Assembly: GCA_021162615.1 (NCBI GenBank)
Contig: JAGGYH010000141.1
Coordinates: forward strand, 1 to 33,925
Source: Candidatus Aminicenantota bacterium
GTDB lineage: Bacteria; Acidobacteriota; Aminicenantia; Aminicenantales; Aminicenantaceae
DNA: 33,925 nucleotides
Reading direction: 5' to 3'
Shown here piece by piece: positions 2,960 through 33,925 of this stretch. Position numbers and translations under genes: made by a program. Each line of letters starts with the position of its first letter. Positions within the stretch are counted from its first letter, which is position 1. Below the pieces are notes generated by a model that had not been told where the DNA came from, made no database searches, and saw only the letters and a program-made list of their open reading frames with translations.

Positions 2960-4333
2960 ATGAATAAAACACTGATTAGAGGAGGCGATGTAGTTCTGGA
3001 TGGAGATGTCTTGAAGCAGGACATCCTTATTCAAGGAGAAAAAATAGCTGCTGTGGGAGACCTTTCCGGTGTTCAAGCTTCAAAAGAATACAGCGCCCAG
3101 GGACTTCTGGTGCTTCCAGGGGCTGTGGATACCCATGTGCATTTCAATGATGAGTTCATGGACACCAAGAGTGTCCATGACTATGAGACCGGCACTGTTG
3201 CCGCTGCATTTGGCGGAGTCACCACTGTGGTGGATTTTTCAAACCAGATTCCTGAAAAGCCTTTGATCCACACTCTGGAAAAGAAAAAAAAAGAAGCTGA
3301 GGGCAGAGCCATAGTAGACTGGGGAGTTCATCCGGTTATCACAAATGCCGCCTCAGAAATCCTCAAGGAAATCCCTTTGTTAGTGGAAAAAGGAGCGCCC
3401 ACCATAAAGTGCTATATGGTTTACAGAGAAGAAGGATTAATGGTCAAGGAGCACGACCTCAGGCGCATTATGGAACAGCTTAAAAGTGCCGGCGGCATGC
3501 TCATGGTTCATGCGGAAGATAACGACATCATTGAAAAAAACAGTTCTTCCCTGATAAAACAGGGGCTGACAGAGCCTATCTATCATGCAAAAAGCCGCCC
3601 TCCTGAAGCTGAAAATAAAGCCATAGAGAAATGCATTCATTTGGCTGAACAGACACAAGCCAGGATTTTTATTGTTCATTTGTCCACAGCCAAAGGAGTC
3701 CGGCTTATAGGTCAAGCTCGAAAAAAAGGGATTAACGTGTATGCAGAGACCTGCATCCATTATCTTTATTTTACAGAGAGCCAGCTTAAGCATAGGGACG
3801 GTATTAAATGGATCTGCTCTCCCCCCCTCCGAAGTAAATCAAACCAGGAAAAACTATGGGAGGGACTTCGGGACAAACGAATCTCTCTCGTAACCACTGA
3901 TGATGCGGCTTATTCCTGGGCCGCCAAGATGATGGGAGCTCACCGTTTTGATAAATGCCCAAATGGAATTCCAGGGATCGAAGTGAGACTTTCTCTCTTG
4001 TATTCAGAAGGAGTTCAAAAAGGGCGAATCTCTCTTAACCGCATGGTGGAGCTTATCTCAACTCAACCCGCTGAAATTTTCGGTATGTCTCCTCAAAAAG
4101 GGTCTCTCTCTCCCGGTGCTGATGCGGATATTGTTTTATTTGATCCCAAGAAAAAATGGACTATGGGAAGAGATTCCCTGCACATGGCTGCTGACTGGTC
4201 TGCGTATGAGGATATTGACATTACTGGAAAGATCGAGAAGGTCTTTTCCAGAGGAGAGCTGATTGTGGATGGCGAGCGGCTGCTGGCTCAAAAAGGGAGA
4301 GGAAAGTACATCAAAAGAAAATTAAAATGGTGA
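2960..4333 (+). CDS. Dihydropyrimidinase / D-hydantoinase
   Basis: A 457-residue cyclic amidohydrolase of the dihydropyrimidinase family. It opens the ring of dihydropyrimidines or 5-substituted hydantoins to N-carbamoyl amino acids in the cytoplasm. The binuclear metal ligands are all visible: H59 and H61 (DTHVHFND), K150 as the carboxylated Lys (TIKCYMVYREEGL), H184 (MVHAED), H240 (IVHLST) and D314 (TTDDAAYS). The last motif is usually TDHCPF in hydantoinases, so the H-C pair is replaced here and the substrate may differ. GGCGGAG lies before the ATG. The C-terminal codons KLKW overlap the left arm of a hairpin repeat. A hydantoin racemase homologue four genes downstream favours hydantoins over pyrimidines. 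Allantoinase is a less likely alternative. Confidence 0.85.
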   Translation: MNKTLIRGGDVVLDGDVLKQDILIQGEKIAAVGDLSGVQASKEYSAQGLLVLPGAVDTHVHFNDEFMDTKSVHDYETGTVAAAFGGVTTVVDFSNQIPEKPLIHTLEKKKKEAEGRAIVDWGVHPVITNAASEILKEIPLLVEKGAPTIKCYMVYREEGLMVKEHDLRRIMEQLKSAGGMLMVHAEDNDIIEKNSSSLIKQGLTEPIYHAKSRPPEAENKAIEKCIHLAEQTQARIFIVHLSTAKGVRLIGQARKKGINVYAETCIHYLYFTESQLKHRDGIKWICSPPLRSKSNQEKLWEGLRDKRISLVTTDDAAYSWAAKMMGAHRFDKCPNGIPGIEVRLSLLYSEGVQKGRISLNRMVELISTQPAEIFGMSPQKGSLSPGADADIVLFDPKKKWTMGRDSLHMAADWSAYEDIDITGKIEKVFSRGELIVDGERLLAQKGRGKYIKRKLKW

Positions 4334-4374
4334 TGAAATGAATAATAAAATCATCGCCATTTTTTTATGAATAG
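4324..4374 (+). repeat. Intercistronic hairpin carrying a repeat-family end (copy A)
   Basis: The arms AAAATGGTGATGA (4324-4336) and TCATCGCCATTTT (4351-4363) pair over 13 positions with one G-U, around a 14-nt loop. A run of seven T follows. It therefore resembles a weak intrinsic terminator or attenuator between hydantoinase and decarboxylase. The stretch 4338-4374 is 35/37 identical to copy B at 5758-5794. The end ATGAATAG plus GTCAGG matches the outward end of the dispersed TTAA-associated repeat family. The hydantoinase stop codon lies inside the left arm. Confidence 0.7.
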
Positions 4375-4384
4375 GTCAGGGTCA

Positions 4385-5752
4385 ATGAGTGACGAGAAAG
4401 AAAACAAAAAAACAGCAAGAATTTTTTCAGGAGCCTCTCCCGAAAAAGTAGCTCAAGACCTCTCCCCTCTTATTCATTTCAAGGAACAGGGAATGCCGCT
4501 TTCAGAACTGCGCGCCCTTTTGGAGAAAAGCCTGTTCCCCCATCTGATGAACTACGCTTCTCCCCAATTCCAATCCATGTTCAATACTTTTCCTGAACCC
4601 GGAGCTAAATTCGGGGCTGTGCTGGAAATTCAATACAATCAAGGAGTGACCAACTGGCAAGTCTCCCCCGGAGGCGCCATGCTGGAAGAGCTGTGCGCCA
4701 GAGCTTTATGCCATATGTTCGGCTTCCCCCCGGATTCAGATGCCACATTCATGTACTGCGGCACCTCTGCCAATCTGCAGGCTCTTTTTCTGGCGCTCCA
4801 CAGGCATGCCGAAAAACAGGGATTTGACCTCTGTCAAAAAGGAATTACCGGATTTGAAAATCCTGAAAAATTATTTCTGCTCTGCTCTGAAGATGCTCAC
4901 TTTTCTTTGAAACATGCGGTGCGCACTCTGGGTTTGGGTGAGAAAAGCCTAGTTCCTGTAAAAGTGGACCAAAACCGGAGAATGGATGTGAATCACTTTC
5001 AACAAAAAATTGATCAAACAGGAAGGAAAAATATCTTTGGCGTTGTGGCCACAGCAGGGACCACCTCCACTGGTTCTGTAGATCCTCTTTCTTTAATAGC
5101 TGAGATCTCTATAAATGAAAATATCTGGGTCCATATAGACGGGGCCTATGGACTGGCTTATTCTCTGGTTCCTGAGTGGGAGCCTCTTTTCCAAGGAAAA
5201 GAGCTGGCTGATTCTGTGTCCTGGGATCCTCATAAACAATTTGGAGTCCCTATCCCAAACTCTGTATTGTTTGTGAAAAATGAACAAGACTTTGAGCGAA
5301 TGACACTATACAGTGATTATTTCAATCCCTCACAGGACACACATCCCAATCCAGGCCTTAAATCCGCCCCATCAACCCGGCCTTTTTCTGCCCTTCCTCT
5401 CATAACATCTATACTGCATCAGGGCCTAAAAAAAATAAGACACAGGCTGCGTTCACCTCTGGAAGCTGTGAAAAAAGCAGCTGTACAGATCCAATCAGAG
5501 CCTGAATTGGAGCTCTGCCTCAAACCAGATACAGGAATCCTGTGCTTTCAGGTGGTACCCAAGAATATAAAGCCGGATAAAATCAATGACCTTCAGGAAA
5601 TGATATACAACGAAATCATGTCCAAAGGAGAGAACGCTCTTTCGAAAACAAAAATAGGAGATAAAACAGCACTCAGGCTGGTTGCTGTTTCTCCTGCCGT
5701 TCAAAGCAGGCACCTTCTGGAAACAGCTTATTTATGCCGCAGCATCGCTTAA
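4385..5752 (+). CDS. Group II PLP-dependent amino acid decarboxylase
   Basis: A pyridoxal-phosphate decarboxylase related to aromatic-L-amino-acid, glutamate and histidine decarboxylases, about 455 residues. Motifs, numbered from the upstream ATG at 4367: EDAHFS with H178 stacking on the PLP ring, HIDGAYG with D258 binding the pyridine nitrogen, and SWDPHK with K290 as the Schiff-base Lys. All key residues are present. I chose ATG 4385 rather than 4367 because the earlier ATG belongs to the repeat and has no ribosome-binding sequence, while 4385 follows AGGTCAGGG. If 4367 is used, six residues are added. Its place between a hydantoinase and an amino-acid symporter suggests it decarboxylates an amino acid (possibly aromatic) released from or related to the hydantoin. 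The substrate cannot be read from sequence. Confidence 0.85.
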   Translation: MSDEKENKKTARIFSGASPEKVAQDLSPLIHFKEQGMPLSELRALLEKSLFPHLMNYASPQFQSMFNTFPEPGAKFGAVLEIQYNQGVTNWQVSPGGAMLEELCARALCHMFGFPPDSDATFMYCGTSANLQALFLALHRHAEKQGFDLCQKGITGFENPEKLFLLCSEDAHFSLKHAVRTLGLGEKSLVPVKVDQNRRMDVNHFQQKIDQTGRKNIFGVVATAGTTSTGSVDPLSLIAEISINENIWVHIDGAYGLAYSLVPEWEPLFQGKELADSVSWDPHKQFGVPIPNSVLFVKNEQDFERMTLYSDYFNPSQDTHPNPGLKSAPSTRPFSALPLITSILHQGLKKIRHRLRSPLEAVKKAAVQIQSEPELELCLKPDTGILCFQVVPKNIKPDKINDLQEMIYNEIMSKGENALSKTKIGDKTALRLVAVSPAVQSRHLLETAYLCRSIA

Positions 5753-5757
5753 ACAAA

Positions 5758-5805
5758 ATGAATAATAAAATCGCCGCCATTTTTTTATGAATAGTAAATG
5801 TTAAA
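5758..5805 (+). repeat. Dispersed repeat end between decarboxylase and symporter (copy B)
   Basis: Positions 5758-5794 match copy A at 35 of 37 bases, including the A-rich left part, CGCC followed by seven T, and ATGAATAG. The end then diverges (TAAATGTTAA in place of GTCAGG), although TTAA is present at 5801 minus one. Copy B lacks the long left stem arm of copy A, so it would form only a short AAAATG/CATTTT stem. It fills nearly the whole intergenic gap. Confidence 0.7.
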
Positions 5806-7227
5806 GTGTTAGAGCCAATATTAAACACAGCTTCATTTATTGACCAGGTATTATGGGGGCCCTGGACCATAATTTTCATTGCAGGAGTGGCGGTCTTTTT
5901 AACCATTAAATCAAAAGCCTTTCAAATAACCCGGATAGGACTCATATTTAAAAACACATTCGGAAAAATATTTGAGACAACAAAAATCCAGCCCAAGGGA
6001 AGGATGACCCCTTTTCAGGCCACTTCCACAGCTTTAGCTTCCACTGTGGGGATGGGCAATATTGCCGGAGTGGCCACAGCTCTGTCCATCGGAGGACCGG
6101 GCGCCATATTCTGGATGTGGATTTTAGCTCTTTTCAGCATGATCATCAAAACCGCAGAAATAACTCTGGCTGTTCATTACAGAGAAGTGGGCAAAAACGG
6201 AATCCTTCACGGGGGACCTATGTACTATATGAGAAAGGGCCTGGGCTGGAAATCCCTGGCAAAGATATTTGCAGGGGGAGTTCTGGTTAATTCCCTGCTC
6301 AGCGCCACTCTGCTCCAGCAGCACACAGTAGGACGCGCTTTTCTCTCCAGCTATAAAATAAATCCCTACCTTACCACAGGCCTCATGGCTGCGATCACAG
6401 GATTTGTGGTGATCGGAGGCATTAGACGCATTGGCAGGGTTTGTGAGAGGCTGGTTCCTTTGATGTCTCTTGTTTATATTCTGGGAGGCGTGGCTGTCTT
6501 CCTTATCAATTATGCCAAAATACCCGAAGTGTTTGGAATGATCATCAAGTATGCCTTTTCTCCGGTCCCGGCAGTGGGAGGGATGGCAGGTGTGGCTGTA
6601 AGTGCCGCCCTTAAGGAAGGCATGGCTAAAGGCATGCTTTCCAATGAAGCTGGCCTGGGCACAGCTCCCATGGCTCATGCCACAGCAGACACAACGCATC
6701 CTTTTCAGCAGGGATTATGGGGGGCTTTTGAAACCTTTATCGATACCTTCATTATCTGCTCCATAACTTCATTTGCGGTTTTATCGACAGGACTCCTGGG
6801 AAGTGGTCAATCCGGTATAGAGCTGGTGATCGACTCATTCTCTTCAGTGTTTCCTTCTTGGCTGGCTTCAGCCGTCATATCCTTTTCCATACTGCTGTTT
6901 TGCTTGTCCACCCAGATCGGATTTTTTATCTATTATGAAACCTCTGTGGTCACTCTTTTTGGTAAAAAATCAATCCGCTATCTCAAATGGCTTTATTTTC
7001 TGCCCGGAGTGATCTTTGCTGGGGTCGCTCATGTGAACAAACTTTGGGTTTTTGCCAACATATCTGTGGGTGTGTGCGCCCTTCCCAATCTGGTTGCTCT
7101 TTTGGCTTTAAACGGCGCGTTCTTCAAGCTGATGAATGATTTCTTGGAGAAGCACAACAAGTACGCTGTTTTAAAGGTTGACTCTAACAGGAATTATGTT
7201 GTAAAAGCAAACAGAAGACAACAATAA
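5806..7227 (+). CDS. AGCS-family sodium:amino-acid symporter
   Basis: A 473-residue inner-membrane carrier of the alanine or glycine:cation symporter family, usually 440-550 residues with about eleven helices. Family motifs include ATSTALASTVGMGNIAGVATALSIGGPGA-type sequence near residues 70-95, HGGPMYYMRKGLG near 130, and NEAGLGTAPMAHATADTTHPFQQG near 280. It probably imports an amino acid, or a hydantoin-like derivative, with Na+. The start is a GTG at 5806, the only usable start after an in-frame TGA at 5788, and the Shine-Dalgarno is poor. Position in the cluster suggests it supplies substrate to the hydantoinase or decarboxylase. AGCS carriers normally move Ala or Gly, so hydantoin transport would be a new role and is only inferred. 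Confidence 0.9.
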   Translation: MLEPILNTASFIDQVLWGPWTIIFIAGVAVFLTIKSKAFQITRIGLIFKNTFGKIFETTKIQPKGRMTPFQATSTALASTVGMGNIAGVATALSIGGPGAIFWMWILALFSMIIKTAEITLAVHYREVGKNGILHGGPMYYMRKGLGWKSLAKIFAGGVLVNSLLSATLLQQHTVGRAFLSSYKINPYLTTGLMAAITGFVVIGGIRRIGRVCERLVPLMSLVYILGGVAVFLINYAKIPEVFGMIIKYAFSPVPAVGGMAGVAVSAALKEGMAKGMLSNEAGLGTAPMAHATADTTHPFQQGLWGAFETFIDTFIICSITSFAVLSTGLLGSGQSGIELVIDSFSSVFPSWLASAVISFSILLFCLSTQIGFFIYYETSVVTLFGKKSIRYLKWLYFLPGVIFAGVAHVNKLWVFANISVGVCALPNLVALLALNGAFFKLMNDFLEKHNKYAVLKVDSNRNYVVKANRRQQ

Positions 7228-7768: not shown

Positions 7769-7793
7769 TACTTATTCCCTATTTTTATATTAA

Positions 7794-8173
7794 CCTGGAT
7801 TATTCACGAGTCAAGGTTGAAGAGAGCTTACTGAAATTCAGGTGTGGCTGAAGCGACATTGAAGATTTAGCCTTCGGAGTGCTGTGTTTGAGGGAACTCA
7901 GCAAAGCTGTGCTGCGAGCATGTCTGACCCACGGACGGGGGGAGTTGCGCAGCAGCCGAGAACACAGCACAAAGAATGGCGTTAAAAATCTTTAGCGAGC
8001 ACAAGCCATATCTGAATTTCATTTTGGCTCGCCTCAATGGTAAAAAAATGGCGATTAAAATGAAAGTAAAAACTAACAAAAATATTTCAGTTGTCATTTT
8101 TATCAAAAACATGTATATCCTTGAAAGCAAAATAAAATAATGAACGTCGCCATTTTTTTATGAATAGTTCAGG
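7794..8173 (+). mobile_element. 380-bp MITE-like element flanked by TTAA
   Basis: The element starts CCTGGATTATTCAC and ends, on the minus strand, with CCTGAACTATTCAT, an imperfect inverted repeat (11/14). TTAA flanks it on both sides (7790-7793 and 8174-8177), as expected for a 4-bp target duplication. No coding region is credible inside. Two parts can be seen. Positions 7831 to about 8032 are a palindromic core shared with 33778-33925. Positions 8041-8160 are a 120-bp segment bounded by a perfect 13-bp inverted repeat, TAAAAAAATGGCG and its complement. Termini beginning CCT and the general form recall IS1380-type ends, but this is from memory and no transposase is present. It lies between the unknown gene and the racemase gene and leaves the racemase Shine-Dalgarno intact. 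Confidence 0.7.
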
Positions 8174-8187
8174 TTAAAGGAAGAACG

Positions 8188-33484: not shown

Positions 33485-33630
33485 GACTTTCATCAGGCAA
33501 GCTGGTTCTTCAGCCCGCTGATTTTCCCCAGCGAGGAAACTCAGCTTATTCCTCGGCTCGCTCCCCTCTGCGAGGAACCATGCCCGCTCGCCTCCAGATG
33601 ACTTCAGAACCAGCCCGCCTGCCTGAAAGT
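33485..33630. repeat. 146-bp palindromic element, second family
   Basis: The left end, ACTTTCATCAGGCAAGCTGG and on to TTCT, pairs with the right end, which on the minus strand reads ACTTTCAGGCAGGCGGGCTGG and on to TTCT: about 21 of 25 positions with one gap. The middle is rich in CGAGG and CCTCG motifs that can form smaller stems. It does not share the TTAA-family ends. No gene is credible across it. It may be a REP-like or MITE-like element, or a structured RNA. Confidence 0.55.
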
Positions 33631-33675: not shown

Positions 33676-33727
33676 CTTACGAAATTCAGGTGTGGACGTA
33701 GCGACATTAAAGATTTAGCCTTCGGAT
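33676..33727 (+). repeat. Partial copy of the MITE core start
   Basis: This 52-bp stretch, from CTTACGAAATTCAGG to TTAGCCTTCGGA, repeats the beginning of the core that follows at 33775 with only two mismatches and one gap. It is preceded by TTAACC. The rest of the core is missing, so it is a broken tandem duplicate next to the next copy. Confidence 0.7.
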
Positions 33728-33740
33728 GCAGGAAGTCGAT

Positions 33741-33925
33741 CCTGGTTAATTGTCGAGTCGAGGTTGAAGAGAGCTTACTGAAATTCAGGTGTGGACGCAG
33801 CGACATTGAAGATTTAGCCTTCGGAGTGCTGTGTTTGAGGGAACTCGGCAAAGCCGAGCTGTGAGTATGTTTGACCCACGGACGGGGGGAGTTACGCAGC
33901 AGCCGAGAACACAGTGCGAAGAATG
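33741..33925 (+). mobile_element. Second copy of the MITE-like element, cut by the window end
   Basis: The tip CCTGGTTAATTGTCGAG resembles CCTGGATTATTCACGAG at 7794. From CGAGTC onward the two copies differ at about 14 of 171 positions (roughly 92% identity) up to the window end. The differences keep stems: CAGC-AAA-GCTG becomes CGGC-AAA-GCCG, and changes in AACACAGCAC give G-U pairs. TTAA is not seen at this left end, and the right end is outside the window. Confidence 0.7.

Follow-up and report, generated by a model that had tools for sequence, protein, structure and literature searches.

A 33,925-nt stretch of a Candidatus Aminicenantes genome (the window) holds two copies of a palindromic element, and the locus raises the question of whether the fold of this palindrome is itself maintained and, if so, whether it acts as RNA, as single-stranded DNA or merely as a double-stranded DNA palindrome. 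The copies were detected as a repeat (D1; 185 nt, 90% identity) beginning at 7794 and 33741. A sequence-only reading had proposed a structured RNA from the differences between them: the hairpin CAGC-AAA-GCTG in one is CGGC-AAA-GCCG in the other, and the changes in the long arm (AACACAGCAC versus AACACAGTGC) become G-U pairs in plus-strand RNA. The hairpin difference can be read directly in both sequences, and both arm changes do wobble with the opposite arm. A further helix claimed there, GTCTG/CGGAC, exists only in a subfamily with a 7-nt insert, is absent from the consensus structure, and received no separate count. The same reading conceded that two copies are weak statistics, a concession now superseded by 128 copies and by 86 distinct rows of a second alignment. 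The left-hand palindrome proved to be the middle (7832-8021) of a TTAA-flanked MITE of 380 bp, whose parts are collected in Table 1.

Table 1. Features of the element and of its further copies in the window.
Feature	Position	Strand	Basis or remark
TTAA, left copy of probable 4-bp target duplication	7790..7793	.	Sequence; type D duplication length
Whole MITE, terminal-repeat type D, inverted ends CCTGGATTATTCAC (left) ... TTATGAATAGTTCAGG (right)	7794..8173	+	
Left outer arm TGAAATTCAGGTGTGGC	7832..7848	+	Pairs with 8005-8021; palindromic in all types
Structured core	7849..8005	+	Covariance model R1, 161.8 bits; covariation
Right outer arm GCCATATCTGAATTTCA	8005..8021	+	Sequence, folding
TTAA, right copy of probable target duplication	8174..8177	.	
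Remnant of another copy, its first ~50 nt	33676..33726	+	17.4 bits
Second copy, contig end cuts inside core	33741..33925	+	Core 33796-33925; 122.3 bits, 3' truncated

The window core was more stable than every shuffled version on either strand (0/200 as stable on each), with folding z-scores of -7.8 for plus-strand and -4.9 for minus-strand RNA. Covariation was evaluated in a MAFFT alignment of 128 copies made from sequence only, from which partial copies covering <145 model positions and 6 of 134 sequences with odd inserts had been excluded. The RNAalifold consensus of these copies has a long outer stem and internal loops that are conserved; its inner part contains one three-way junction. Against a null of 60 alignments simulated on the tree without structure (E <0.05), 6 column pairs were significant, and all 6 lie in consensus stems; two subfamilies analysed apart gave 3/3 and 3/3 significant pairs within stems, and parsimony counted 159 double changes that keep pairing over the 61 consensus pairs. 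A covariance model, R1, was built for the core from 39 sequences (40 pairs), and a second, model-fitted alignment of 86 distinct rows reached five further families of the order. There, 94.8% of cells were paired, compared with 34.7-52.7% for slid partners; both sides had changed in 30 of the 40 pairs; both-side-changed cells numbered 555 versus 149.7 +/- 11.6 in shuffles; and the tree null left 5 significant pairs, 5/5 of them in the structure. These 40-pair tests lean towards the model to which the alignment was fitted, whereas the 128-copy test does not. Only a minority of consensus pairs is singly significant in either alignment (6/61 and 5/40), because the tree null is harsh. The covariation suspected from two copies thus exceeds a tree-based null as well as slid and shuffled controls, and stands above the phylogenetic background.

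Conservation is not confined to paired positions: mean conservation is 0.844 for unpaired inner columns, 0.832 for paired inner columns and 0.691 for the arms, and columns conserved to at least 95% make up 30/62 of the unpaired and 52/90 of the paired inner columns. Three motifs persist in the divergent families (TTTAGCC, GGCGTnAAAAA, and GAGTTnCGCAG or a near variant), whose tips are long and variable. A search of Rfam returned nothing at gathering and nothing at E 1, the best hit being a chance snoRNA match (E 2.3). Separately, six copies of genome G014 (L276, L279, L281-L283, L286) carry ~70 extra nt at the apical tip of the core, for a span of 217-220 nt.

A merely decaying DNA palindrome should yield G-U and A-C mismatches equally. 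Mismatches were therefore counted by type, with the count limited to the 56 pairs predicted from both strands, which avoids bias. Among the 41 inner pairs, changes from Watson-Crick to G-U outnumbered those to A-C by 92 to 37 (one-sided p 7e-7), whereas the 15 outer pairs showed no such bias (48 versus 42). The inner excess implies that a single plus strand folds, and favours a fold of plus-strand RNA or of single-stranded DNA over a mere double-stranded palindrome; the outer arms, without asymmetry, fit a DNA palindrome. The plus-strand fold of the core is thus under selection and is not just a DNA palindrome, and the earlier contention that the folded strand matters holds, on covariation beyond the nulls and on the inner G-U excess, in the absence of transcript data. 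The same counts bear on the possibility that covariation is a by-product of template switching that perfects palindromes, with no selection on the fold. Template switching has been proposed to create and maintain hairpins (PMC8794818), and the symmetric outer arms would suit such a process. However, the inner asymmetry would not, unpaired inner columns are conserved like paired ones, and of the 76 inner runs of double changes 65 involve a single pair, not the multi-base pattern that template switching would be expected to favour (PMC8794818); we regard this explanation as highly improbable.

That the core moves within MITEs is shown by the inverted repeats at the element ends, by target duplications and by one empty site. 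The structured-RNA interpretation is supported but needs one correction: the fold belongs to the centre of a mobile MITE and does not constitute an RNA gene standing on its own. Terminal inverted repeats were read directly in types A and D. In genome G011, type A consists of 268-bp elements with 24-bp ends (GGTTCTCTTCCATTTTGTGTGGGT) around the core; exact 8-bp target duplications flank 11 of 19 elements, with 8% mismatch at length 8 versus 53-79% at other lengths. For type D, the type in the window, a 4-bp TTAA-like duplication stands out in length (9/28 exact, 35% mismatch), and tentative duplications were seen for type B (9 bp, 2/19 exact) and type C (8 bp, 1/6 exact). At one locus the whole type C element is missing from a relative at its AAATATYA target (L109 versus L193), and a second (L079 in G001 versus L040 in G000) also looks like an empty site; two further apparent cases, L160/L166 and L204/L178, were rejected as deletions or diverged copies. 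No transposase gene lies inside, the 268-bp and 380-bp elements being too short for one, and because the core varies by 1-nt and 7-nt indels it has no conserved reading frame. An 87-codon minus-strand frame does cross the window element (7867-8130), and its counterparts in other copies look like repeat by-products.

ISL3 elements make 8-bp duplications. A full ISL3-family insertion sequence (PF01610) of 1,328 bp in genome G024 (L344) has an intact 421-codon frame and ends identical to type A ends at 23/24 positions (one mismatch each), and an exact type A end follows an ISL3 transposase in G011 (L345; 24/24). With 8-bp duplications and the 24-bp ends held in common, type A is therefore an ISL3 MITE, and an ISL3-family transposase presumably moves it in trans. 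In contrast to the MITEs, the full element is filled by its transposase frame and leaves no room for a core. No full ISL3 partner was found in G014 (0/1 first-look candidates) or G005 (0/0), and for type D, where PF13701 was the only IS family checked, none of 4 such loci carried the terminal repeats.

Copies of the element are numerous. The genome of the window (2.85 Mb, 146 contigs) holds at least 42 matches, with the best 40 of 223 candidates scored; at least 9 of the 42 abut contig ends, as copies of a repeat that interrupts assembly should do. The type D right end alone has 256 matches in this genome versus 4 control matches, and type D ends are scattered through the window (4324-4386, 5744-5806, 8117-8179, 15748, 17673 and 31901). 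A piece of the 3' end of the element itself (TGAAGGGAGCACAAGCCA) is often found 20-30 nt upstream of a following copy (L012, L030, L034, L040, L075-L077), a placement that reads as if new copies had landed beside older ones. Across the order, the model R1, built as the sequence-only reading had suggested, finds copies in 44 of 60 relatives, at 0 to at least 50 per genome (best 51 candidates scored in each). In a 247-genome sample of the phylum, the core occurred in 7/15 genomes of the order and in 0/232 outside it. A 21-base core motif was found in at least 101 stretches, nearly all from Candidatus Aminicenantes, with 2 under other names among the matches listed. Records named Neomarinimicrobiota and Zixibacteria (L135, L202) hold a copy near a contig end, through mis-binning or transfer. 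A viral link was discarded, an 18-base core motif having 0 exact matches in viral contigs.

The same core sits at the arm tips of several unrelated terminal-repeat types, and several kinds of arms enclose it even inside one genome. A tree of the cores places the G005 type C copy with type A copies from G005 and G032, and puts the type C copies of G014 beside type A copies of that genome; along this tree the type label switches 7 times and the genus label 9 times, with modest support values. The simplest reading is that cores were exchanged between arm types, or arms between cores, although tree support for this suggestion is modest. A stronger version would treat the core as a unit that is itself mobile or exchangeable and enters palindrome tips, the arms being its targets. 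The shared cores and their tree groupings are what this version would lead one to expect, as are the core-free type D MITEs that hold another hairpin module at the same place, and the G011 forms of 400-540 bp in which a third module replaces the core's own tip. No uninserted palindrome with the same inner arms was found, however; the search yielded 5 core-free AGCG-motif hairpins, of which the one with core-type arms (L200) looks like a deletion between repeats. With no recombinase found near copies either, and with the tree support as it is, we consider an independently mobile core doubtful.

Several observations describe these modules further. The core-free type D MITEs (L264:10058-10217; L268:2813-3067) hold at the core's place a second hairpin module (CCTTCACCGCGAGTACCCTGTAACGAAGCAGATGC) that resembles the GAGTA...TTACG motif of the core. 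The third palindromic module, with GGAACCATGCCCGCTC, occurs at 33538-33605 in the window and in L294-L301, upstream of many G000 copies, and inside the core tip in G011. A direct repeat AGCGA bounds the core in many copies (for example at 7852-7856 and 7994-7998 in the window), AGCGG takes its place at both core ends in the type C copies of G014, and the deletion that L200 resembles would lie between AGCGA-like direct repeats.

Copies are intergenic and near genes, at median distances of 40 to 193 nt, and the core folds stably, both of which would suit a role as host regulatory RNAs or 3'-end elements, each retained for the gene beside it. Nevertheless, orientation to flanking genes is random (24/24/22/21 of 91 copies, those near contig or locus ends being excluded), which speaks against a regulatory position near genes, and no recurrent neighbouring protein family was found within 1,500 nt beyond the element's own frames. 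The largest neighbour clusters (31 and 29 loci), judged by example sequences, look like frames through the element plus flanking repeats; the remaining clusters are scattered housekeeping genes. The same survey of neighbours within 1,500 nt, which did not query the IsrB/IscB/TnpB Pfam families by name, bears only weakly on a HEARO/OMEGA link, for which some copies would lie next to such genes. Within one recent burst there is no extra constraint on the core (conservation 0.959, compared with 0.935 and 0.919 for the terminal repeats and 0.987 and 0.861 for the spacers). Together with the target duplications and the empty site, these results make upkeep for each neighbouring gene very unlikely. 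Since fresh copies in the burst decay evenly, selection probably acts on spreading source elements rather than on each landed copy. The benefit would accordingly fall to those source elements, for example by keeping the element active or tolerated, and not to a neighbouring host gene, an inference from these patterns alone.

Which single strand folds, RNA or DNA, is harder to decide. The core may be a single-stranded DNA fold (hairpin or cruciform) recognised in transposition or replication, with no RNA involved, as REP hairpins are recognised by RAYT and IS200/IS605 ends by TnpA; the strand asymmetry suits this reading and an RNA equally well. Judged by local GC skew, 78 of 120 copies have the plus strand of the core on the C-rich side, a mild bias that could point to a replication-linked single-stranded DNA role and that either weighs against RNA alone or arises as a by-product of tolerance; in G014 alone, 20-kb skews gave no clear strand bias. 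RAYT-like Y1 transposases are present in 46 of the 60 genomes, yet none of the 14 loci examined carries a copy, and RAYT was rejected as the partner. Moreover, G007, G029 and G034 have many copies and no Y1 match, type A bears ISL3 signatures instead, and the conserved unpaired motifs and three-way junction look more RNA-like; we therefore consider a DNA-only role unlikely, though it has to be kept in mind. RNA function remains the likeliest reading without having been demonstrated, as there are no transcript data. Against it, the core contains no known promoter, and random orientation to genes means that read-through gives the antisense strand about as often. The RNA would have to be produced by read-through or from a promoter not yet seen. 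Our preferred explanation is a conserved, strand-specifically folded core (~150 nt) of palindromic MITEs in the Candidatus Aminicenantes order that works as RNA, to which we assign a probability of roughly 0.6, with the RNA role inferred; which step of the element's life such an RNA serves is the least certain part.

No literature on noncoding RNA or on such repeats in Aminicenantes was found among open-licence PMC papers. REP/BIME elements with RAYT are high-copy intergenic palindromes that fold as one strand; the Aminicenantes elements share these traits but have a much larger, branched core and target duplications, and no copy at the RAYT loci. HEARO/OMEGA RNAs are RNA-bearing mobile elements with ORF-less copies, and those copies are similarly mobile structured RNAs in high number without a protein gene; unlike them, the Aminicenantes core has neither an Rfam match nor a recurrent neighbouring protein. 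Eukaryotic SINEs are non-autonomous, high-copy elements with a structured RNA inside, and by analogy the same might be said of the present elements, with the difference that these are moved by DNA transposases and give no evidence of reverse transcription. Among prokaryotic MITEs, QMITE2 of Coxiella burnetii is comparable in being short and transposase-free, with terminal inverted repeats and target duplications, and it forms stable stem-loop transcripts and is moved in trans by an IS (PMC10969869), a transcript not having been shown in Aminicenantes. The Aminicenantes elements differ from prokaryotic MITEs in that their inside is an order-wide fold, better kept than the terminal repeats and common to unrelated repeat types. 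It is possible, if only as a tentative analogy, that they represent a bacterial counterpart of SINEs: an order-wide, transposase-less structured RNA that would serve as interchangeable cargo at transposon-palindrome tips, switching MITE types and riding several unrelated IS transposases, with the fold itself selected.

Overall, a MITE would be expected to preserve its ends while its inside decays, whereas here an ancient fold forms the inside and has been preserved both throughout the order and between unrelated ends. That the fold is kept much better than the parts needed for mobility is unusual and suggests that the fold itself has a job. Counting G-U against A-C changes offers a simple means of deciding whether a repeat contains an RNA-like fold or a DNA palindrome, and it is now possible to test the old question of whether non-autonomous elements in bacteria can bear an RNA that aids their own spread.
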